Below, in pieces: positions 14,437-42,593 of a DNA stretch of 42,721 nucleotides; within the stretch, counting starts at the first letter, position 1; every line of letters starts with the position of its first letter. The DNA is from Bacteroidota bacterium (lineage in GTDB: Bacteria; Bacteroidota; Bacteroidia; 2-12-FULL-35-15). The stretch spans positions 1-42,721 of the forward strand of contig JAHEYB010000025.1 of the NCBI GenBank assembly GCA_023251805.1. Direction: 5' to 3'. Both the position numbers and the translations under genes were made by a program. The notes under the pieces were generated by a model, which saw only the letters and a list, made by a program, of their open reading frames with translations, was not told the DNA's origin and did no database searches.

Positions 14437-14847
14437 ATGGGAATAGCTAGTAAAGGATACGATTTAAGCCTGCCTCATAGTATTTATGAATACTTAAATA
14501 CGTTGATGCTGGAACAAAAAAAAATTGAAACAGAAACTTTCCTAGATACCATTTTTAATTCTCAGAATAACCTTTTTATAATGCTCTCTTTTGATGGTAG
14601 TATTAAGAAAGTTTCGTCTGCTTTAGTTAAGCTATTGGATTATTCGGAGGAAGATATTCTGGTCTTACCCATCAAACATTTGCTGCTTAAGGGCAATTTT
14701 GGTTTAAATGGCAAGTTCAATAATTATTATTTTCAAAACATCATAATAAAAAAGAATAAGTCCCTTTTGCCGATTAAATGGCGTTTGATTCCTGATGTAC
14801 TGGAAGATGCTTATATATATATTGGCTGGGAAATTAAACCACTTTAA
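14437..14847 (+). CDS. Single PAS-domain protein
   Basis: This 136-residue protein has residues about 45-135 that fit a PAS fold: L-F-I-M-L-S-F-D-G-S-I-K-K-V-S-S-A-L, then L-L-D-Y-S-E-E-D-I-L (the PAS 'lGys.eEl' turn), ending in a strand I-Y-I-G-W-E-I. No output domain follows, so it would sense or bind a partner rather than act itself. Its 3' end overlaps the convergent PAS-PPM phosphatase gene by 14 bases. It is preceded by 139 bases containing two TATTTTTG-like sequences close to the ATG, so it may have its own promoter. Confidence 0.7.
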   Translation: MGIASKGYDLSLPHSIYEYLNTLMLEQKKIETETFLDTIFNSQNNLFIMLSFDGSIKKVSSALVKLLDYSEEDILVLPIKHLLLKGNFGLNGKFNNYYFQNIIIKKNKSLLPIKWRLIPDVLEDAYIYIGWEIKPL

Positions 14848-16135
14848 TTCCAATCACTAACACATCGTCAACCTGCTCCAATTCTCCCTTCCAATCTAGT
14901 AATGTCTGATATATCATTTTCTTTTGATCGTCCATGGTATGCTCTTGAACGGCTATTAAGGTTTCTCTAAATCGTTTGTACATAAATTTTTTTCCTTTGG
15001 GTCCACCAAATTGGTCAGCAAAACCATCTGTAAACAAATAAATGGCATCTCCTTTTTGAAGCGCAAACGTTTCATTGGTAAAAGGAATTACAGCACTATC
15101 GCTACTTGCTGTTATCGGTTGCTTATTAGCTTTTAATTCAATCATTTCTCCTGCTCGTACAATATATAAGGGGTTGTTAGCACCTGAAAAACTCAAGCTC
15201 AAATTTTTAAAATCAATTACACTTAGTGCAATGTCCATCCCATCGCGTATGGCAGCTTCATAAGCTTTTTGATTCAAGGTCTTTTTAATCTCACGGTTAA
15301 TAAAGTTTAAGGCATCAGCAGGAGTTGCAATTTCGGGGTTATCAACTGTTCTGTTCAATAAGGTATGACCAATAATACTCATGAATGCTCCTGGAACTCC
15401 ATGGCCTGTGCAATCAACCGCAGCAACTACCAACAAATTGTTTTCGGGTTGCGAAGCGCTGTGTGTTTTGGTGAACCAATAAAAATCTCCACTTACTATA
15501 TCCCGCGGTTTAAATAAAATGAAGGACTCCGGAGCATACTCTTTAATTTTATCTTTTTCAATAAACACCGAACGTTGTATGCGTTTCGAATACTCAATGC
15601 TTGCTGTAATATCTTTATTTTTCTCTTCAATTACTTCATTCTGAATTTTTATTTCATGTTCCATCCTTAAGCGCTCCGTAATATCCCGAGCGTAAATTAC
15701 AATTGCCGGTCGTCCCGCAAATGGCGCTACTTTTGCACTGCATTCAACAGGAATAGTATTGCCAGATTTAGAAATGAATGGAATATCTGAAAAAATTAAT
15801 CCCTTTTTCTCCCAAACATCCGCCACTGTACTCGAACTTTTTTCAATGAGTTCGGTCGGTTGCAATTCAAACAACGATTTTTTTTCCAATTCTGCTTTTG
15901 TATAACCTAACATTGCTGCAGCACTCGGATTACATTGATGAACTCGCCCATCCACAATGTCGATTACAAACATGGCATCGTTTGCTTGCTCTATAATACT
16001 TTCGTAATTGCTTTTTTCTATTTCAATTTTTTTTAGCCTGCCCTCAATAAATTGTTGCTTGAAGTATACCGTTAGTGTAATAACGGATACAACAAGTAGT
16101 GTACTAAGTAATATGACCCAAATAATGTATTGCAT
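14834..16135 (-). CDS. Membrane-anchored PAS-PPM (SpoIIE-type) phosphatase
   Basis: This 433-residue protein has one N-terminal membrane helix (residues 4-24). A PAS domain (~40-155) contains L-G-Y-T-K-A-E-L and ends in the PAC-like I-V-I-Y-A-R-D-I-T-E-R. The linker helix follows (NKDITASIEYSKRIQRSVF), then the PPM serine phosphatase domain (~195-433). Metal-site motifs are visible: D-I-V-S-G-D-F-Y-W, A-A-V-D-C-T-G-H-G-V-P-G, R-D-G-M-D-I-A and Q-V-D-D-V-L-V-I-G. It should dephosphorylate a Ser/Thr-phosphorylated partner, by family an STAS-type anti-sigma antagonist or a similar regulator. None is encoded nearby. It is tail-to-tail with the PAS-only gene. Confidence 0.92.
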   Translation of the reverse strand: MQYIIWVILLSTLLVVSVITLTVYFKQQFIEGRLKKIEIEKSNYESIIEQANDAMFVIDIVDGRVHQCNPSAAAMLGYTKAELEKKSLFELQPTELIEKSSSTVADVWEKKGLIFSDIPFISKSGNTIPVECSAKVAPFAGRPAIVIYARDITERLRMEHEIKIQNEVIEEKNKDITASIEYSKRIQRSVFIEKDKIKEYAPESFILFKPRDIVSGDFYWFTKTHSASQPENNLLVVAAVDCTGHGVPGAFMSIIGHTLLNRTVDNPEIATPADALNFINREIKKTLNQKAYEAAIRDGMDIALSVIDFKNLSLSFSGANNPLYIVRAGEMIELKANKQPITASSDSAVIPFTNETFALQKGDAIYLFTDGFADQFGGPKGKKFMYKRFRETLIAVQEHTMDDQKKMIYQTLLDWKGELEQVDDVLVIGIKVV

Positions 16136-32447: not shown

Positions 32448-33941
32448 TTATTTTATTTCCAACTGAATGGGTAAGTTATAATAAACTGAAACAGGTTTGC
32501 CATTTTGTTTCCCGGGCTTCCATTTTGGCATAAGTTTGATTACGCGCAGTGCTTCTTTATCTAATTCTGGAGTACTTCCTTTGATAATCCTAGGATTTCT
32601 AATAGCACCATCCATCCCAACAATAAATTGAACATAAATTTTGGTACTTGGAAGAACAGTATTAGAATCCACTTTTTTGCTATAATCGAAATTTTGTAAT
32701 AAAAATTTATTCATTTCGGGTTGACCACCGGGGTATTCTGGTGTTTGTTCAACATAAGAATAGATTGGTTCTGCGCTTATTGAATCTGCTATTGTGGTAC
32801 TTGTATTATTATTCAGTGTAACTTCGGATTTTAATTCGTCATTTTGTTGCATAACACTTTGTGGTTCATACGCAACTTCTCCTGACACTTTAATGTTTCC
32901 TGAATCTTCGTCTTTGTTGCCACGAGCTTTTTCTTCTTTTCCAGCTATTTTTGCGGGTTCTTTCTTTTCTTTTTCTTTCGTTTCCAAACGATATTTGCCC
33001 CCTATATCTGCTTTTTTAGCCAATTCCGTTTGTTCACCATTTGCTTTGTCTTCCGCAGCTTTGGTCACAATTTTTTGATTTTTACTTTGATCGGGAGTGG
33101 GTGTCGACCAAGTATAAGTGCCCGTTCCTCCAGCTACTCCTGCAGGTTTTTCTTCTGCTTTTTTGCCATCATCCAACTTTGCATCTTTATCTCTCTCAAC
33201 AATTCCCGTTTTTGGAATAGAAACCGTTTCTAAATTATTATCTTTTCTATCATCACTTGTAGAAGCAGCATCTGATACACTAAGAGTGCCATTTGCAGCA
33301 TTTTCTGCAGGCACTTGTTTGTTCCTGTTTTCGCCATCTCCGGAAGAATTTTTATAATAACCATCTTCAGGTTTTGATTGTCCTTCTGATAAGGTGACTT
33401 CCTGATCGGCTATTGTAAGTGGAGCCGAAAATGTTACGCTTTTTGTTGAGCTAGCTGCTGTTCCTGTTCCACTTGCGGTTGTTTCATTTGTTAGCGTTTC
33501 TTTTTCTTCTTCAGTGGCAGGAGTTGGTGGTGGTGGTGGAAGTGTGGCAGGACTATCAGTTTGTTTTAATTCAGCAAGATCATTCGTTGCCGCTTTTTTC
33601 AAATTTATTTTATTGAAAAAGAAAACACCTGCCACTAATAAAGCTATTGATGCAGCTATAGAAAAGGCCATTTTATAATTAAACTTAATAACAACAGCTT
33701 CTTTCTCTATAGATTCTAAAACTCGTTTAGCAATGGCATCTTTTATTAAAGTAATTTTATTCCTGTCTGTTGTTTGATCTAATCCTTCAAGTGCATCAGA
33801 ACACATTTCACAATCGAGCAAATGTTTTTCAACGAGGTGTCTCTCTTTATGATTTAATTTGTTGTCGATATAATCGAACAACATCTTTTCAGAAAGACAA
33901 TCGGAGGGTGAATAAATGGTATGTTTTAAATCCTTGCTCAT
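32448..33941 (-). CDS. Anti-sigma factor fused to a TonB-like C-terminal domain
   Basis: This is a 497-residue protein. Residues 1-60 are an anti-sigma zinc-binding-like domain (H-L-V-E-K-H-L-L-D-C-E-M-C-S-D, His and Cys-x-x-Cys). One membrane helix lies at ~91-110. Then a long low-complexity periplasmic stretch starts with P-P-P-P-P (135-139) and is rich in Lys/Glu/Gly, with G-G-T-G-T-Y-T-W at ~271. The last ~100 residues (P-E-Y-P-G-G-Q-P-E-M, then G-A-I-R-N-P-R-I-I-K-G, then M-P-K-W-K-P-G-K) are a TonB C-terminal domain. Its start overlaps the sigma factor stop by one base. It should hold the sigma factor at the membrane, possibly reading envelope state through the TonB-like domain. Confidence 0.88.
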   Translation of the reverse strand: MSKDLKHTIYSPSDCLSEKMLFDYIDNKLNHKERHLVEKHLLDCEMCSDALEGLDQTTDRNKITLIKDAIAKRVLESIEKEAVVIKFNYKMAFSIAASIALLVAGVFFFNKINLKKAATNDLAELKQTDSPATLPPPPPTPATEEEKETLTNETTASGTGTAASSTKSVTFSAPLTIADQEVTLSEGQSKPEDGYYKNSSGDGENRNKQVPAENAANGTLSVSDAASTSDDRKDNNLETVSIPKTGIVERDKDAKLDDGKKAEEKPAGVAGGTGTYTWSTPTPDQSKNQKIVTKAAEDKANGEQTELAKKADIGGKYRLETKEKEKKEPAKIAGKEEKARGNKDEDSGNIKVSGEVAYEPQSVMQQNDELKSEVTLNNNTSTTIADSISAEPIYSYVEQTPEYPGGQPEMNKFLLQNFDYSKKVDSNTVLPSTKIYVQFIVGMDGAIRNPRIIKGSTPELDKEALRVIKLMPKWKPGKQNGKPVSVYYNLPIQLEIK

Positions 33942-34525
33942 TATTTTTTTGCACTTTTATTTTCAATGCAAATTTTTAAATTTCGTTTTCCGTTTTGAAT
34001 ATAGCTTTTAACATTGTTCATGTTATAGCTTGTTAATTCTGTTACTTCCTGGTAACTTTTTTCTTGTAAAAAAAACAATTCAAGACATAACTTTTGCTCT
34101 TCGTTTAAACCTTTTAGACACTCTTCCATAAAGGTTAATTGTACTTCTTTTGTGTTTTCGATTGTAAGATGCACTTCGCTATCTGATTCCATAAACGATA
34201 CCAAATCTTTTTGCATTTCTTTGGCGCGCTTTAATTTAGAAGCACCGGAGCGCAATTGCATTAGACAAAAGTTTTTGCAAACCATATGCAGCCAAGCTTT
34301 AAATTGTTGCACTTCATGTTTTCTTAAATCCACCAAAAGTTTTTCAAAAATTTGCATACTGGCATCTTGCGCATCATCTTCATTCTTCAAATATTTCATG
34401 CACACACCAAAAATTAAGTGAGTATAGCGTTTGTGTAATTCGCCAACAAATACATTATTATTGGTTTGCTTGTATTCAGCAACCAATTGTAAATCGTCAT
34501 ATTTATTTAATGCTGGATTACTCAT
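33941..34525 (-). CDS. ECF-type RNA polymerase sigma factor
   Basis: This 194-residue protein starts at the ATG at 34525 (M-S-N-P-A-L-N-K-Y-D-D). An in-frame ATG at 34540 overlaps a TATTTTTG element (complement of 34538-34545) and is less likely. Region 2 is seen in Y-L-K-N-E-D-D-A-Q-D-A-S-M-Q-I-F-E-K and F-K-A-W-L-H-M-V-C-K-N, and region 4 in L-N-E-E-Q-K-L-C-L-E-L-F-F, then S-Y-Q-E-V-T-E. Region 4 has the HTH for the -35 box. It directs polymerase to a specific gene set when released by the membrane anti-sigma encoded just downstream, with TAATG coupling. Confidence 0.92.
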   Translation of the reverse strand: MSNPALNKYDDLQLVAEYKQTNNNVFVGELHKRYTHLIFGVCMKYLKNEDDAQDASMQIFEKLLVDLRKHEVQQFKAWLHMVCKNFCLMQLRSGASKLKRAKEMQKDLVSFMESDSEVHLTIENTKEVQLTFMEECLKGLNEEQKLCLELFFLQEKSYQEVTELTSYNMNNVKSYIQNGKRNLKICIENKSAKK

Positions 34526-34591
34526 ATATAGTATATACAAAAATAGACAATTTATAAAGAAGATGGATTAGAAATAAAAAATACGTGTGGA

Positions 34592-34661: not shown

Positions 34662-36407
34662 ATGAAATCAAAAATTCACGAACTCATGAACTTTAAAAAT
34701 AAAGCTGTGAGTAAAACCTTAAAAACAACTATTCTTGCAACAGCATTTGTAAGTCTATTTGCAAGCAATTATTCTTTTGGAGTTACCACCTCCAGTGAAA
34801 AGAATATTAAATCAAAAATTGAAAATGTAACGGTATTTACACAAGGAGCACAAATTTATCGCACTTCATTGATAAATGTAAATGCAGGAATAAGCACATT
34901 AATTTTTGAAGGATTGGAGGCTACAATTGACCCTAAAAGTATTCAGGCCAGTGGTTTTGGCAATTTTGTGATTATGGATGTGCAACATAGCATTAAATAT
35001 CCTGAACCAAAAAATAGTGACCTTTCTCAAAATCCAAAAAATTTAAAGCAAATAAAAATGTTGCAGGACTCTTTGGTAATGATTGATTTTGATTTGATGG
35101 ATATTACAGATAGACAAGCGTCTTTAAACATCGAAAAAAATACCCTTTTAAATAACAGAATAATTAAAGGTGAAACAAAAAAAGATACCCTAAATTTAGT
35201 AAAAGATGCACTGACTTTTTTAAGAGAAAAATTAAATAATATCAATTCAGAATTATTGAAATTAAAAAAAGAAGAGTATCGCGTAAATATCAAAAAACAA
35301 CGCATGCAAGAGAATTTACTTGCTTTACAAACATACAATGTAAACATTGGTGATATAGTAAAGGATGAAACAAATTACCGCGTAATCATCACTGTTTCGG
35401 CCGATGTAGCAACGAATGGGACAATGAATATTAATTACATGTTGCAAGATGCAGGTTGGACACCTTCTTATGATTTGCGTGCAAAAGGTACCGGTGGAAA
35501 TATGCAATTGACATACAAAGCGCAAGTGTATCAAAATACAGGACTTGATTGGAATGATGTAAAATTAACGCTTTCAACAGCCAGCCCAAATCAAAGCAAT
35601 ATAAAACCAACACTTAATACATGGTGGCTGAATTATTATAATCCTTACGCATACGATTATAAAAGAAAACAATCAGAAGGCCAAAAAGATGATGGCTTGG
35701 CAAAAACTTCCGTAAGTGGTGGAGCAGGAACTTACTCTTGGTCAGCACCCGAAGAAATTGCTCAAACCACTGCCGATTATACGGTTGCAGAAGAAAACAT
35801 AACTACTGTAGAATATGAAATCAAATTGGCGTATAGCATTCCCTGTGATGGCAAAACACATTTTGTTGCAGTGCAAACAAAAGATGTTCCAGCAAATTAT
35901 ATTCATTTCGCTGCTCCCAAAATAGATAAAGATGCATTTTTGGTTGCGAAAATTACCAATTGGGATGAATTAAATTTAGCTCCAGGAAGTGCTAACATCT
36001 ATTTTGATGGCACATTTGTGGGCGAATCATATATTGATCCTACGAATTTATCTGACACATTGGATTTGACTTTGGGAAGAGATAAAAATATGGTTGTGAC
36101 TCGTGTTAAACAAAAAGATAAAACCAAAGAAAAATTAATTGGAGAAGATAAAGTTAAAACAGTTACTTATGAAATTACTGTTCGTAATACAAAATCATCG
36201 TCCTCCAATTTCAACTTACAAGACCAAATTCCGGTTTCTCAAACAAAGGACATTGTAGTCTCTTTGCTTGATTCATCAGGAGGCGAATTAGATGAAACAA
36301 GTGGAATTGTGAATTGGAAGTTTAATTTGAAGCCAAAAGAAACAAAAAAAGTAATCATTTCTTATACAGTTAAATTTCCTAAAGATAAAGCTTTAGCGGG
36401 TTTATAA
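34662..36407 (+). CDS. MuiA-like DUF4140/DUF4139 envelope protein
   Basis: In this 581-residue protein an N-terminal hydrophobic segment (~20-40) acts as a signal peptide. DUF4140 (~52-150) has I-E-N-V-T-V-F-T-Q-G-A-Q-I, then a Lys-rich coiled coil (~140-215), and DUF4139 (~230-575) shows its hallmark A-G-W-T-P-S-Y-D-L-R-A. Such proteins (mucoidy inhibitor A and relatives) are exported and poorly understood. A low-complexity loop contains S-G-G-A-G-T-Y-S-W-S-A-P (352-363), matching a motif in the anti-sigma protein encoded by the divergent operon. Sharing that intergenic region with the ECF gene suggests it belongs to the regulon. Confidence 0.88.
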   Translation: MKSKIHELMNFKNKAVSKTLKTTILATAFVSLFASNYSFGVTTSSEKNIKSKIENVTVFTQGAQIYRTSLINVNAGISTLIFEGLEATIDPKSIQASGFGNFVIMDVQHSIKYPEPKNSDLSQNPKNLKQIKMLQDSLVMIDFDLMDITDRQASLNIEKNTLLNNRIIKGETKKDTLNLVKDALTFLREKLNNINSELLKLKKEEYRVNIKKQRMQENLLALQTYNVNIGDIVKDETNYRVIITVSADVATNGTMNINYMLQDAGWTPSYDLRAKGTGGNMQLTYKAQVYQNTGLDWNDVKLTLSTASPNQSNIKPTLNTWWLNYYNPYAYDYKRKQSEGQKDDGLAKTSVSGGAGTYSWSAPEEIAQTTADYTVAEENITTVEYEIKLAYSIPCDGKTHFVAVQTKDVPANYIHFAAPKIDKDAFLVAKITNWDELNLAPGSANIYFDGTFVGESYIDPTNLSDTLDLTLGRDKNMVVTRVKQKDKTKEKLIGEDKVKTVTYEITVRNTKSSSSNFNLQDQIPVSQTKDIVVSLLDSSGGELDETSGIVNWKFNLKPKETKKVIISYTVKFPKDKALAGL

Positions 36408-36606: not shown

Positions 36607-37137
36607 ATGAAAAAATTGGTCTTTATATTCGTTTCTGTTATGCTACTGTCTTCTTGGATGGTGGTTCCGGCTGACCAATCGGAAGAGGCTAATGCTAAAA
36701 TTAAGGCCATTTACATCTATAATTTCACGAAATACATCGAATGGCCAGAAACTTACAAAGAGGGTAATTTTGTTGTAGGTGTTTTAGGAACGAGTATTCC
36801 TTTGGTGAACGAATTGAATAAAATGGCTACTTCTAAGACAGTTGGAACTCAAAAATTTGAGATAAAATCCGTTGTTTCCCCTTCCGAATGCGCAAAATGT
36901 CACATAGTTTACATACTTTCTGATAACTCTGCACAGCTTCCTGACGTATTAGGGAAAGTAAAGGGGAAAAGTGCCTTAATTGTTACGGATAAATCAGGTT
37001 TAGCAACAAAAGGTTCAGCGATTAACTTCTTTGTAGATGGGAATAAGCAAAAAATTGAATTAAATAAGTCAAATATAGAGAAATACAAGCTTAAAGTGGC
37101 GTCAACATTGGTGGAGATGTCGGTACAGGTAAAATAA
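36607..37137 (+). CDS. YfiR-like periplasmic protein (DUF4154)
   Basis: This 176-residue protein starts at the ATG at 36607, which opens a proper signal peptide (MKKLVFIFVSVMLLSSWMVV); an upstream ATG at 36577 would spoil it. The YfiR family signature A-K-I-K-A-I-Y-I-Y-N-F-T-K-Y-I-E-W-P (30-46) is clear, as are F-V-V-G-V-L-G and C-A-K-C-H-I-V-Y-I-L (Cys95, Cys98). In Pseudomonas YfiR is a redox-sensitive periplasmic inhibitor of the HAMP-GGDEF enzyme YfiN. Here the same strand carries, 27 bases on, a TPR gene and then a HAMP-PPM phosphatase, so the target is likely to be that phosphatase. This is an inference from order and domain likeness. Confidence 0.88.
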   Translation: MKKLVFIFVSVMLLSSWMVVPADQSEEANAKIKAIYIYNFTKYIEWPETYKEGNFVVGVLGTSIPLVNELNKMATSKTVGTQKFEIKSVVSPSECAKCHIVYILSDNSAQLPDVLGKVKGKSALIVTDKSGLATKGSAINFFVDGNKQKIELNKSNIEKYKLKVASTLVEMSVQVK

Positions 37138-37164
37138 AATTATTTTTTATATATTTACAAATTA

Positions 37165-38052
37165 ATGTTAAAACTTAGAAGAACACTTATTTTTGGAATA
37201 CTGCTTTTAATGGGCTTTGTTTCGAATGCACAGCAATCCAAAGTGACTGCTGCGTATACGTTCTTGCAACAAGGCAAATTGGATAGCGCAAAAGCGAATA
37301 TCGATGCTGCTGTTGTTCATCCTGAAACAATAGGAGATGGCCAGGCTTGGTACATTCGCGGATTTGTTTACAAAACCATTTACAATCAAACAGAAAAAGC
37401 AAATAAAGAATCTAAAATCAGAATTGAAGCATTGATTTCTTTCAAAAAATCGCTTTCAATTGATACTGCCCAAGAAAATGTTCAGGAAAATATTAAAAAC
37501 ATTAAGTATTTAGCAACTACGCTGTACAATGATGCTGCCGCTAGTTTAGATACAATTGATTATAAAATTGCTGTGAAAAATTTTGACATTTTTAGAGAGT
37601 ACTATTTGTTGGTTGACCCTTCAAAAGAAAATTTTAAACGAAAAGAAATTGATTTTGCAAATGCAATTGCAACCGTTTATACACGAATTTATGAAGGAGA
37701 CAGAAAAGGGAAAGTTGATTTCTTGAATTTGGCGAAAGCAGCATACAATAGAGCATTAGCATTTGATCCAAACAATATTAATGCAAACTATAACATGGGT
37801 ATTTTGTACTATAATCAAGCGGTTAATTTAATTAATCAAAGCGATTATGATTTAGATATTGTGGCTTTAAATGATGTTCAGGATAATTCTATCAACTTAT
37901 TTAAGGCATCATTACCTTTTATGGAAAAGGCTTACTCACTTGATCCAAATAGAAAAGAAACACTGTTGGGTTTATCGGGAATCTATTTTAGTTTAAATGA
38001 AAAAGAGAAATCGAATGAGTTTAAACAGAAATTAGAACAAATAGGAAAATAA
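37165..38052 (+). CDS. Exported TPR protein
   Basis: In this 295-residue protein a signal peptide ends near V-S-N-A-Q-Q. TPR-like helices follow: A-Y-T-F-L-Q-Q-G-K-L-D-S-A-K-A-N-I, then A-W-Y-I-R-G-F-V-Y-K-T-I-Y, and later A-K-A-A-Y-N-R-A-L-A-F-D-P-N-N-I-N-A-N-Y-N-M-G-I-L-Y-Y. It is an expected periplasmic scaffold. Located 27 bases after the YfiR-like gene and 34 bases before the HAMP-PPM gene, it is probably part of the same signalling complex. Confidence 0.85.
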   Translation: MLKLRRTLIFGILLLMGFVSNAQQSKVTAAYTFLQQGKLDSAKANIDAAVVHPETIGDGQAWYIRGFVYKTIYNQTEKANKESKIRIEALISFKKSLSIDTAQENVQENIKNIKYLATTLYNDAAASLDTIDYKIAVKNFDIFREYYLLVDPSKENFKRKEIDFANAIATVYTRIYEGDRKGKVDFLNLAKAAYNRALAFDPNNINANYNMGILYYNQAVNLINQSDYDLDIVALNDVQDNSINLFKASLPFMEKAYSLDPNRKETLLGLSGIYFSLNEKEKSNEFKQKLEQIGK

Positions 38053-38086
38053 AAAACGATAAATTAAAACACCCTCAATAGTTTCT

Positions 38087-39877
38087 ATGAAGTTAAGATT
38101 TACAATTGGTAGAAAGATAGGATTAGGCTTTGGCGTAATCATTTTTTTGGTAATTGTAGCATTTTGGCTCACCAATGTTACCCTCAACGACAGTCGTAAA
38201 AAAACAGATCAGGTAACTGAAATTTACAACCCTTCCGTTGCTTCTCTTAAGGAATTAAATTACCTTCTTATCCGTTCAAAATTTTTAATTACCAAATGGT
38301 TTTATGTTCAAACCGGTGATGATGCCATTGATAAAAAAGCATTACGTGTGTTGATAAAAGACGAATACCCAGCTCTGAAAACAAAAATCAAAAAATATTC
38401 CGTTAACTGGAATAAAGATGAGCAGGAAAGTATTGATGGTATTTTGGCCTTGATTGAACAAATGTTTAAAAGCTATCAAGATGATGTAATGCTTACGCTT
38501 AACTCGTTTGACACATACAACGATGCTGCTATTAAATTCACCGCTTTAATTCCATTCGAAGATTTAGATTCAAAATTTAAAGTAATCAATGAAAATTTAA
38601 GTTCGCTAATCGATAAACAAAATGCAAACGCATCAGCAAATTCTGATGAAATGTTGCAATCCTTTGGTTCGCTTCAAAAAATTGTGATATGGTTATTTTT
38701 TATTCTTCCTTTTGGTGCTATTTTAATTGCCATTTTTACTGTGAGAACAATTGTTCGCCCGATTCATCAACTGAAAAAAATATTAGTGATGATGGGAAGA
38801 GGAGTGCTGCCTAGAGAAAGAATTAAAGATAGAAATGATGAAATAGGGGAGATGTCCATTGCCTTGAACGATTTAGTTGATGGGATGGGCAGGACAACTG
38901 AGTTTGCCAAACAAGTAGGTTCCGGAAATTTTGATTCGCATTACCGAGCTTTGAGCAAAGATGATACCTTGGGTGCTGCATTGTTAAAAATGCGTGAAGA
39001 TTTGCGAGAAAATGAGCGTGTTTTGGAGGCAAAAGTAATTGAGCGTACCGAGCAAGTTGTTCGACAAAAAGAAGAAATTGAAACTCAAAATCAAGAGTTG
39101 GAAGTGCTTTATAAGCACGTTACAGACAGTATCAAATATGCGAAACGTATTCAAGAAGCCATTTTGCCTCCCGATAGCTTAGTAAAACGTATTCTTCCAA
39201 ATTCTTTTGTTTTATACAAACCGAAAGATATTGTTTCGGGAGATTTTTTCTGGGTGGATGAAAAAAATGGAAAATCGATGTATGCTGCTGTAGATTGTAC
39301 AGGGCATGGTGTGCCAGGAGCTTTTATGTCGATAGTAGGTTACAACTTGTTAAAACACGTTGTAAACAGTAATAATAGCACAACACCATCCGAAATCTTA
39401 GACCGTTTAAATGAAGGGGTAAGCGAAACCTTGCATCACGGCCATGAGGATTCGCAAGCCAAAGATGGAATGGATCTTTCTTTTTGTACGATTGATTTTA
39501 AAACGCTTGAATTGCAATACGCAGGGGCTTATAACCCTTTATATTTAATTCGTGACGGTAAATTAATTCAAACGAAAGCGGATAAATTTCCAATCGGTTT
39601 GTTTTTAGGAGAAGAAAAAAAGAAATTTAAAAATCATACAGTTCAGCTTCAAAAAGGAGATTCTGTTTATATTTTCTCAGATGGTTATGCCGATCAATTT
39701 GGTGGTCCAAATGGCAAAAAATTCATGGCAAACCATTTCCGCGATTTGTTAATGGAAGTTCACAATGAACCCATCGATAAACAAAAGGAAGTTTTGAACA
39801 AAACCATTGAAGATTGGCGTGGACCACTTGACCAAGTGGACGATATACTTGTGATTGGGCTTAAAATTCCTTACTAA
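38087..39877 (+). CDS. HAMP-PPM (SpoIIE-type) membrane phosphatase
   Basis: This 596-residue protein has TM1 at 11-31, a periplasmic four-helix-bundle-like sensor (~32-195), TM2 (~198-220), HAMP (~220-272, R-P-I-H-Q-L-K-K-I, then N-D-E-I-G-E-M), a coiled coil, the linker DSIKYAKRIQEAILPPDS and the PPM domain (~375-596). Metal-binding motifs are intact: D-I-V-S-G-D-F-F-W, A-V-D-C-T-G-H-G-V-P-G, K-D-G-M-D-L and V-D-D-I-L-V-I-G. It is the probable output of the YfiR-like operon. The sensor-HAMP half resembles the arrangement of YfiN, with a Ser/Thr phosphatase in place of a diguanylate cyclase. Confidence 0.93.
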   Translation: MKLRFTIGRKIGLGFGVIIFLVIVAFWLTNVTLNDSRKKTDQVTEIYNPSVASLKELNYLLIRSKFLITKWFYVQTGDDAIDKKALRVLIKDEYPALKTKIKKYSVNWNKDEQESIDGILALIEQMFKSYQDDVMLTLNSFDTYNDAAIKFTALIPFEDLDSKFKVINENLSSLIDKQNANASANSDEMLQSFGSLQKIVIWLFFILPFGAILIAIFTVRTIVRPIHQLKKILVMMGRGVLPRERIKDRNDEIGEMSIALNDLVDGMGRTTEFAKQVGSGNFDSHYRALSKDDTLGAALLKMREDLRENERVLEAKVIERTEQVVRQKEEIETQNQELEVLYKHVTDSIKYAKRIQEAILPPDSLVKRILPNSFVLYKPKDIVSGDFFWVDEKNGKSMYAAVDCTGHGVPGAFMSIVGYNLLKHVVNSNNSTTPSEILDRLNEGVSETLHHGHEDSQAKDGMDLSFCTIDFKTLELQYAGAYNPLYLIRDGKLIQTKADKFPIGLFLGEEKKKFKNHTVQLQKGDSVYIFSDGYADQFGGPNGKKFMANHFRDLLMEVHNEPIDKQKEVLNKTIEDWRGPLDQVDDILVIGLKIPY

Positions 39878-39974: not shown

Positions 39975-42593
39975 ATGGCAAGAAAAATACTCTATTTCAC
40001 TTTGTTTGTTTCATTGTTGCTGACTTCAAAACTTGCAGAAGCTCAGCCAAATGACTTTCAGTGTACGCCAAACAATTTAGGATTTCTTCCACTTGCATCT
40101 CCACCCTGTTCTTCAAGTGCTGGTGTTTCATACGGGTCTCCTGTGTCAGCAGCCGGTTCAACATTATTTGCTACGAATGATTCGCTGAGTGGTTATCTGA
40201 CATCTTGTTATTCCGGTCCTCCACTCAAAGACGTATGGTTTACTTTTAATGCTACTGAAGCTCACGTAGAAGTGCAAATACAAGGAGCAGGAGCAACACC
40301 TTTATCTGATTCTTATGTTGCAATTTATGAAGCATTAACCGGTGAATGTGTTGGTTTAATTCCTAGAGAATGCTCATTAGGTAGCGGTACAGGACTTCAT
40401 ACGATGGACTTCGGTCCTTTAACTTTAGGGGTTCAGTATTATTTGCAAGTTGCAAGTGGAATAGCTGGAGGAAATGGAACTTTTACAATGGTGATAAGAA
40501 GTAAAACTATTTGTTCTGACTGTTCTAAAAATTCTGTTTTGAATGCTTACCCTCTTCCGGTTAATGCAGCTTATCCTCCTGATACAACCGTAGGTTTTTG
40601 TTACTCTGTAATTGGCTATAACGAATTGTTTGGAAATGGTTTTCATGGAATGGTTCCTTTGTTTGGCAGTGGTTGGGATGCTTCCACTTTAACAATATAT
40701 GATGCAGCCGATTCGGCTGATTTTTTAGGACAATGGAAATGGTTTAGCAATATTGACATAGGCGGAACAAGCGGTATTGTTAGCGGCTTTTTTTATGACA
40801 TAGGAGGAGATGGTGATCCAACAAATAATTTAGGAGACCATGGAACTTTTTCAACCATTTGGACTTTCTGTTTTACTATTAAAACTCAAACGGCTGCTTT
40901 ATGCAGTGCAGGGCAGAATGATTTGAGTATTCGTTTTTTAAATTATGCTGACGGAGAATCAGGTTCCTTAGTTTCAACTTATGACTGTTCCGGAGACGAG
41001 GATTATGTTTTGGATGCCCATATGGAATGTTGCCCTAAACCTTTTGGCGTTTTTGCTCAAGCAGCCGGTTGTAATAGTACTCCCGATGGATCAATTGTAG
41101 CATATGCTGGATTTTCTGCCTTTGGTTATATTTATGAATTATATAATTCAGTTGGATCACTGGTTAGTACTTTCACTTCTCCTCCTTTTTCAACTACTCC
41201 TTATACTTTTACCGGATTGCTTGAAGGAAACTATTATTGGTACTTCCATGAAAATGTTGGAGGTGCTTGCCAAACAGGATATAACGTTTATGTTCCTGGT
41301 CCGGTAACTTATGATATTCAACAAACTGTTTTTGGCTGTCCTTCTTCTACTAGCTGTACAAATTCTGCCCAAGTATTAATTACGAGTGGCGCAGTTACAA
41401 GTGTTACGTGGAGTAACGGAGAAACAGGATTTATTGCAGATTCATTGTGCACAGGATGGAACTATGTTACAATTGTTGATACAGGTTCTGTTGCATGTTT
41501 TATTTTCGATTCCGTTTACATTACAAACTCTCCTTTTGCAAGTCCTTATTTTGATTATAATCAAAGTGTTTATTGTACTTCCGATTCATTTGCTGTGCTG
41601 TCTGATTTTCCTGCAGCAGCTGGTGGAACGTTTTCAATTGTTACAGCACCTCCTGGAATAAATTCTACTGACCTTAACTCAAGTACGGGCACAGTTGATA
41701 TTTCTGGAGCAACATTTTCCGGATTTTTAATCATTAAGTATTCTTCACCGCCTCCTTGTATAGCAAATTATACCGATACAATGAATATTGAAATTAGTCC
41801 TCCGCCTCCTTTGACAAGTATATTTCCTTGTCAGTATTTGTGTACGGGTGATGTGGCAAATCCATACAGCAATACCTCATCCTTTAATGTGGAATGGTAT
41901 AGCGATCCTACTCTTGGCGCTCTTATTACAACTCAGATGGTAGGAAATTCTTTTGATTTTTTTAGTGGGATTCCTTTTACAGGTCCGGGATTATTTTCTT
42001 TTTATCTTGTAAATACGAGCACAACCAATTCTTGTAAAAGTGCTGTATTGCCTGTTACAGTTACTGTTTATCCTACACCAGTTGTTGATGCAGGCCCCTC
42101 TTTAACAGTTTGCCCAGGTTTTGGAATTAACTTAAACTGTACAACCGGGCCAAGTACTTTTAGTTGGTCTCCTGCTAGTGTGTTAACTAATCCAAACATA
42201 GCTAATCCAGTTGCCAATATTTCTTCCACAACTTTATTCACGGTTGTTGCCACTGATGCTTCTTCCGGATGTTCTTCCAGCGATACAGTTACTGTTTTTG
42301 TTGATGACAATGGAACATGCGATATTGTTATTTACAATGGATTTACTCCTAATGGTGATAACAATAATGATTTCTGGTTTATAGATGGTATTTCAGTCGA
42401 CCGTAAAAATCAAGTGTATATTTTTAATCGTTGGGGAGATAAAGTTTGGGAAACAACCGGTTACAATAATATTGATAACAGATGGGAAGGAAAAACATAC
42501 AAAGGAAAAAATTTAGTTCCCGATGGAACTTATTTTTACATCATTCACTTTCAAGATAAAGATTATAAAGGTTATATCGAGCTAACGAAATAA
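39975..42593 (+). CDS. Large secreted protein with T9SS type B (gliding-motility) C-terminal domain
   Basis: This 872-residue protein has a signal peptide (MARKILYFTLFVSLLLTSKL, then A-E-A-Q). The Thr/Ser/Gly-rich body contains many cysteines and probable Ig/PKD-like beta domains; the ~715-790 region (P-V-V-D-A-G-P-S-L-T-V-C-P-G) is typical. The C-terminal ~90 residues are the CHU_C/type B domain: N-G-F-T-P-N-G-D-N-N-N-D-F-W, then I-F-N-R-W-G-D-K-V-W-E, then V-P-D-G-T-Y-F-Y. It should be exported by the T9SS and attached to the surface. Its ligand is unknown. The N-terminal C-Y-S-G-P-P-L-K-D-V-W-F-T-F region resembles a jelly-roll domain. Confidence 0.9.
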   Translation: MARKILYFTLFVSLLLTSKLAEAQPNDFQCTPNNLGFLPLASPPCSSSAGVSYGSPVSAAGSTLFATNDSLSGYLTSCYSGPPLKDVWFTFNATEAHVEVQIQGAGATPLSDSYVAIYEALTGECVGLIPRECSLGSGTGLHTMDFGPLTLGVQYYLQVASGIAGGNGTFTMVIRSKTICSDCSKNSVLNAYPLPVNAAYPPDTTVGFCYSVIGYNELFGNGFHGMVPLFGSGWDASTLTIYDAADSADFLGQWKWFSNIDIGGTSGIVSGFFYDIGGDGDPTNNLGDHGTFSTIWTFCFTIKTQTAALCSAGQNDLSIRFLNYADGESGSLVSTYDCSGDEDYVLDAHMECCPKPFGVFAQAAGCNSTPDGSIVAYAGFSAFGYIYELYNSVGSLVSTFTSPPFSTTPYTFTGLLEGNYYWYFHENVGGACQTGYNVYVPGPVTYDIQQTVFGCPSSTSCTNSAQVLITSGAVTSVTWSNGETGFIADSLCTGWNYVTIVDTGSVACFIFDSVYITNSPFASPYFDYNQSVYCTSDSFAVLSDFPAAAGGTFSIVTAPPGINSTDLNSSTGTVDISGATFSGFLIIKYSSPPPCIANYTDTMNIEISPPPPLTSIFPCQYLCTGDVANPYSNTSSFNVEWYSDPTLGALITTQMVGNSFDFFSGIPFTGPGLFSFYLVNTSTTNSCKSAVLPVTVTVYPTPVVDAGPSLTVCPGFGINLNCTTGPSTFSWSPASVLTNPNIANPVANISSTTLFTVVATDASSGCSSSDTVTVFVDDNGTCDIVIYNGFTPNGDNNNDFWFIDGISVDRKNQVYIFNRWGDKVWETTGYNNIDNRWEGKTYKGKNLVPDGTYFYIIHFQDKDYKGYIELTK

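Follow-up and report, generated by a model that had tools for sequence, protein, structure and literature searches.

In Pseudomonas and E. coli, YfiR represses a diguanylate cyclase, an enzyme that makes c-di-GMP. The closest described systems are YfiBNR (TpbB) of P. aeruginosa and YfiR-DgcN of E. coli, and in YfiR two conserved pairs of cysteines form an essential disulfide (C145-C152) and a labile one (C71-C110) (PMC4655355). Modular relatives of the YfiR-YfiN[PAS] pair, in which the output is a kinase, GGDEF-EAL, Hpt or MCP domain, have also been proposed (Malone 2012; PMC3375315). These relatives keep the PAS/HAMP core, and the passages on them name neither a PPM output nor a member of the Bacteroidota; the terms "SpoIIE" and "Bacteroid" are absent from that paper, in which "phosphatase" is met with a single time, within its references.

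On the side of the phosphatases, control of PPM enzymes by switch helices and coiled-coil linkers has been published (PMC5468089; PMC12143880), and the dimeric coiled-coil linker is a control route shared by PPM, kinase and cyclase outputs (PMC12143880). SiaA, from the SiaABCD system of P. aeruginosa, is a TM-HAMP-PPM phosphatase, and RsbU, RsbP and SpoIIE have in common the PPM fold, the switch helices and a dimer linker.

The locus described here resembles YfiBNR and YfiR-DgcN in that a secreted protein of YfiR fold, with a conserved C-terminal strip, is encoded beside a TM-HAMP enzyme, and control of the cytoplasmic output is probably exerted from the periplasm. It differs from them in its output, which is PPM instead of GGDEF, in its four-helix sensor, which takes the place of CHASE8/PAS, in the TPR protein that stands in the position of YfiB, and in the absence of the YfiR disulfide cysteines. 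With the relatives of Malone (2012) it shares the principle of one YfiR-type input for varied outputs (PMC3375315); since modular Yfi outputs were proposed there, the general idea of the preliminary description of this DNA, that of a periplasmic input joined to another output, was already known. Its phosphatase has the architecture of SiaA and the fold, switch helices and linker of RsbU, RsbP and SpoIIE. However, it falls below the SiaA cut-off (NF038263), no SiaC gene adjoins it and a search of the draft genome found no GGDEF domain, and it would be controlled by a periplasmic partner and not by RsbT, PAS or septal signals. A search of mainly open-access literature found no published description of a DUF4154-TPR-SpoIIE operon, and the PPM output, the helical partner and the TPR third gene appear to be undescribed before.

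The operon and its genomic setting

The window is the whole 42,721-nucleotide stretch of DNA that was analysed, a contig of a Bacteroidota draft genome. ORF starts were assigned mechanically, and flanks are bounded by MAG contig ends. Between 36607 and 39877, three ORFs follow each other on one strand, with intergenic gaps of 27 bp (DUF4154-TPR) and 34 bp (TPR-phosphatase); they make up the three-gene set that had been proposed before, namely DUF4154, TPR and TM-sensor-TM-HAMP-SpoIIE/PPM (Table 1).

Table 1. Coordinates of the three genes and of their domains and motifs in the window.
Feature	Position	Strand	Remarks
DUF4154/YfiR-fold secreted protein, 176 aa	36607..37137	+	ATG at 36607; signal peptide at about residues 1-22
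DUF4154 domain	36697-37122	+	Pfam PF13689, 115 bits, E 3e-33
CxxC (C95, C98), proposed redox switch	36889..36900	+	Present in the window protein, not conserved
Secreted TPR protein, 295 aa, signal peptide	37165..38052	+	Pfam TPR_11, E 3e-6; no other membrane segment apparent
Membrane PPM phosphatase, 596 aa: TM1-periplasmic four-helix sensor-TM2-HAMP-coiled coil-SpoIIE/PPM	38087..39877	+	Pfam HAMP, E 3e-7; SpoIIE, E 1e-20
Periplasmic sensor, residues about 32-198, predicted four-helix bundle	38180..38680	+	AlphaFold
HAMP domain, residues 217-265	38735..38881	+	Pfam
Linker helix/switch region before the phosphatase core, residues 310-359	39014..39163	+	TDSIxYA invariant (orthologue alignment)
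SpoIIE/PPM catalytic domain	39278..39868	+	Pfam PF07228

The product of the first gene covers positions 2-142 of the 143 in the Pfam profile (YfiR/HmsC-like), at a score to be compared with a cut-off of 24.9 bits. Its AlphaFold model (pLDDT 89) has the YfiR fold: in a Foldseek search of the PDB, YfiR entries take ranks 1-15, with E-values down to 5e-8 and a TM-score of about 0.7. The next ranks go to Rhodothermus marinus structures deposited as "substrate-binding protein" (5z6v, 6k1x, 6k1y, 8wgl), which may be DUF4154 relatives under another name. The alignment to the YfiR sequence is weak (profile E 0.26) yet colinear, and a PDB sequence search with the single protein gave noise only, whereas profile and fold searches did reach YfiR. 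The protein stays below the cut-offs of YfiR proper (NF053586, NCBIfam equivalog; 19 against 85 bits) and of the TOL_0243 YfiR-like family (104 against 125 bits). Its conserved C-terminal strip, E151 and N153, aligns with YfiR E163 and N165.

A redox switch had been proposed for the CxxC motif of this protein. Among 58 orthologues, however, C95 is found in 4, C98 in 36 and the complete CxxC in 5, while 21 are devoid of cysteine after residue 22, that is, in the mature protein. Of the two cysteine pairs of YfiR, the equivalent of C110 alone is present, as C98; the positions of C71, C145 and C152 are held by other residues. As CxxC is rare and these three equivalents are non-cysteine, a conserved redox switch is unsupported.

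The third product is, on sequence grounds, a Ser/Thr phosphatase of the SpoIIE/PPM family with the metal-site acidic residues expected. Its PF07228 match scores 75 bits (cut-off 25), and the candidate metal-binding residues D386, which lies just upstream of the Pfam match, D403, D460/D463, D532 and D585/D586 are invariant, D386, D403, D463 and D586 in 61 orthologues. SiaA is its best NCBIfam match (223 against a required 700 bits), from residue 269 onwards only, and the closest solved structure to the PPM domain is SiaA-PP2C (6k4e; 31% identity). The sensor region has no Pfam match, CHASE8 included, while the E. coli DgcN/YfiN control gives CHASE8 and GGDEF as expected. In the AlphaFold model, the N-terminal helices (7-73, 81-105, 110-135 and 147-237) form a bundle that is continuous with both TM helices, and W71, P49, S50 and K83 are conserved. 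The YfiN-like sensor implied by the preliminary description is thus replaced by a predicted four-helix bundle, and for this reason the system is not YfiN with an exchanged output.

As had been described, the window is free of GGDEF domains; the 2.98-Mb draft assembly also gave no GGDEF match, an absence short of proof at about 80% completeness. The same search detected GGDEF in 8 of 14 control genomes. The draft genome contains 35 SpoIIE domains, one of which belongs to another phosphatase in the window (14837-16135, minus strand), a PAS-SpoIIE protein without membrane sensor domain matches. Each of the three DUF4154 genes of the genome lies near SpoIIE, the other two (G000:C37:8647-9063 and G000:C52:54947-55360, loci L058 and L094) near TPR-SpoIIE proteins. 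Relatives do not preserve either of these two adjacencies, which shows that with 35 SpoIIE genes some will adjoin DUF4154 by chance, and the count of three out of three was set aside as evidence.

Genes further upstream and downstream vary between families and were rejected as core parts. A type IX secretion (CHU_C) protein is encoded 97 bp downstream of the phosphatase (39975-42593); because CHU_C was found in 11 of 25 sampled downstream neighbours, that of the window included, and about ten relatives are 28-72% identical, part of the group may have it as a fourth member. Upstream, 32448-34540 (minus strand) and 34662-36407 hold an ECF sigma factor accompanied by an anti-sigma-like gene (zf-HC2/TonB_C), and a gene of the DUF4139/MuiA family; ORFs of like length recur 5' of the operon in relatives of the same genus.

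Gene order and pairing in relatives

In 59 relatives and 148 genomes of the phylum, DUF4154 genes were selected solely by family membership, with about 8 kb read on each side where contigs allowed, and two large classes appear among the 85 loci. In class 1, that of the window, a TPR gene (about 300 aa) comes after DUF4154, and the gene for a helical-sensor-HAMP-SpoIIE protein after that. Class 2 usually has a TonB-receptor gene adjoining DUF4154, and its partner protein, a CHASE8-HAMP histidine kinase, is a true output swap of the YfiN sensor. Class 2 loci (L037-L043, L046, L048, L051, L052, L106-L109, L111, L113, L118 and L120) are widespread in Bacteroidota. Across the 85 loci, CHASE8 pairs with histidine kinase and never with SpoIIE, and no GGDEF was detected near the DUF4154 genes with the E. 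coli DgcN seed, which as a single sequence is a weak detector. In the evenly drawn phylum sample, DUF4154 occurs in only 19 of 148 genomes, few of them with class 1. In a GC-rich locus (L093), Pfam and profile matches give the normal order.

Conservation of the order was examined further in a scan of named genomes, which yielded 80 loci. The DUF4154-TPR-SpoIIE order is intact in 71 of the 80, a figure that measures the consistency of the class and not its frequency across DUF4154 at large, since the scan was seeded with class 1 patterns. In eight others the ORFs are broken or run off a contig end, and the sole real exception, from Bacteroidales (L203, 2010-3509), has two successive DUF4154 genes and lacks SpoIIE. 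Where the order is intact, the median gaps are 1 and 24 bp. The named loci lie in Flavobacteriales, Vicingaceae and records labelled Chitinophagales and Cytophagales, with one isolate, Acidiluteibacter ferrifornacis S-15 (L182). The order on which the preliminary description had staked its idea is therefore kept in relatives.

The strongest test examined pairing from the side of the sensor, used alone as query in the 59 relatives, where it occurs about once per genome. Among 37 strong matches (E < 1e-57), 35 are at most 3.5 kb from a DUF4154 gene (34 on the same strand, one convergent). The remaining two are at contig ends, with the missing neighbours at other contig ends; in one of these relatives, G020, the TPR gene itself is split between two contigs. 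The chance of such proximity is, by our estimate, well under 1% per match, given about 1-3 DUF4154 genes in 3-5 Mb; the 37 matches are non-independent, being mostly from one genus, and span at least eight further families. In addition, six relatives without the sensor (G008, G022, G023, G026, G030 and G034) are also without DUF4154. More distant sensor relatives on histidine kinases adjoin DUF4154 (L049, L066), and two to four weak matches do not. The full-length orthologues of the TPR protein in the 59 relatives adjoin DUF4154 genes as well, in a pairing almost as strict as that of the sensor.

Fusions, co-divergence and competing explanations

In two loci (L097, L105), a single chain runs from signal peptide and DUF4154 through a long coiled coil, TM and coiled coil to SpoIIE. 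Other chains of this build end in adenylate cyclase (L097) or histidine kinase (L115, L116, L117). Such architectures speak for a direct control of the output by DUF4154, even if the helical-bundle sensor is missing from the fused proteins. Locus L097 (G058:C142, 7899-15403) encodes in tandem DUF4154-SpoIIE, DUF4154-adenylate cyclase and TPR-adenylate cyclase proteins, two outputs on the same input domain.

Co-divergence was measured in 72 operons by distance-matrix correlation, with HAMP and PPM distances regressed out and a Mantel test. The DUF4154-sensor partial correlation is 0.43 (Mantel p 0.0005); rank-based values are 0.36 for all operons, 0.46 minus outliers, 0.28 after thinning and 0.38 after thinning minus outliers (p 0.0005 each). 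It exceeds DUF4154-TPR (0.15-0.23) in every subset, while TPR-sensor gives 0.09-0.28. This favours, short of proof, a contact between DUF4154 and the sensor, shared operon history being incompletely removed.

Taken as a whole, the locus can be read as a three-gene transmembrane signalling module, in which a YfiR-type periplasmic regulator switches a PPM phosphatase through a four-helix sensor; we give this a probability of roughly 0.6. The DUF4154 protein, free in the periplasm, would dock on the phosphatase dimer at its four-helix domain. As it docks or is released, helix packing would alter, and the change would reach the PPM switch helices by way of TM2, HAMP and the coiled-coil linker, so that the enzyme is turned off or on. 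If YfiR is taken as the model, the DUF4154-bound state is probably the off state. Because the partner domain differs from the PAS-like domain bound by YfiR, the mode of binding cannot be carried over. The secreted TPR protein probably sets the amount of free DUF4154 protein, or what it senses, and may thereby stand in for the YfiB of Pseudomonas as the upstream input. The substrate would probably be a switch protein of SiaC or STAS type whose gene lies at another site. Against the module stand the weak sequence similarity to YfiR and the location of the substrate candidates (three SiaC genes, one STAS gene) on other contigs of the draft genome.

An unlikely alternative is that DUF4154 acts indirectly, the TPR protein being the true ligand of the sensor and DUF4154 regulating the TPR protein or an outer-membrane partner. 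The TPR gene does sit between the other two, its family pairs with DUF4154 nearly as strictly, and one locus (L079) keeps DUF4154 and TPR together without an adjoining phosphatase. However, co-divergence is higher for DUF4154 and the sensor than for either pair with TPR, the sensor protein directly follows DUF4154 in two loci (L100, L049), and the fusions bypass the TPR protein.

Still less probable is a divergent YfiBNR, in which the GGDEF of YfiN was exchanged for PPM and all else is as in Pseudomonas. The fold, the alignment of the C-terminal strip with a YfiR region proposed to bind YfiN, and the modularity proposed in PMC3375315 would agree with it, but the sensor is a helical bundle without CHASE8/PAS, the set has no YfiB-like OmpA protein, the NCBIfam YfiR score is far under its cut-off, and in the 85 DUF4154 loci read CHASE8 keeps to histidine kinases. 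Operons can join unrelated genes, and the two unconserved adjacencies on C37 and C52 illustrate chance, so the neighbourhood might reflect shared transcription without functional coupling; this is very improbable, given the fusions, the kinase versions with the same sensor and a pairing that, over many families, is exclusive to a single sensor type. What stands of the original proposal is that a YfiR-fold protein is genetically coupled to a Ser/Thr phosphatase in a conserved order; its derivation from YfiN by a swapped output, the sensor being helical, does not.

Implications for periplasmic signalling

More generally, there is about an even chance that DUF4154 is a general periplasmic docking module, which would use at least two unrelated receptor folds (the PAS-like CHASE8 and the four-helix bundle), could be fused via a periplasmic coiled coil, and would serve four outputs (histidine kinase, PPM phosphatase, adenylate cyclase and diguanylate cyclase), Ser/Thr dephosphorylation replacing c-di-GMP control in these Bacteroidota. 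A conserved operon that would place a YfiR-fold protein over a PPM phosphatase, in a draft genome where 35 SpoIIE domains and no GGDEF were detected, is a natural experiment on how a single periplasmic input comes to serve unrelated outputs. With it, the proposal that coiled-coil linkers can be exchanged (PMC12143880) becomes directly testable, and one of the many SpoIIE phosphatases that are orphans in Bacteroidota would gain an input.
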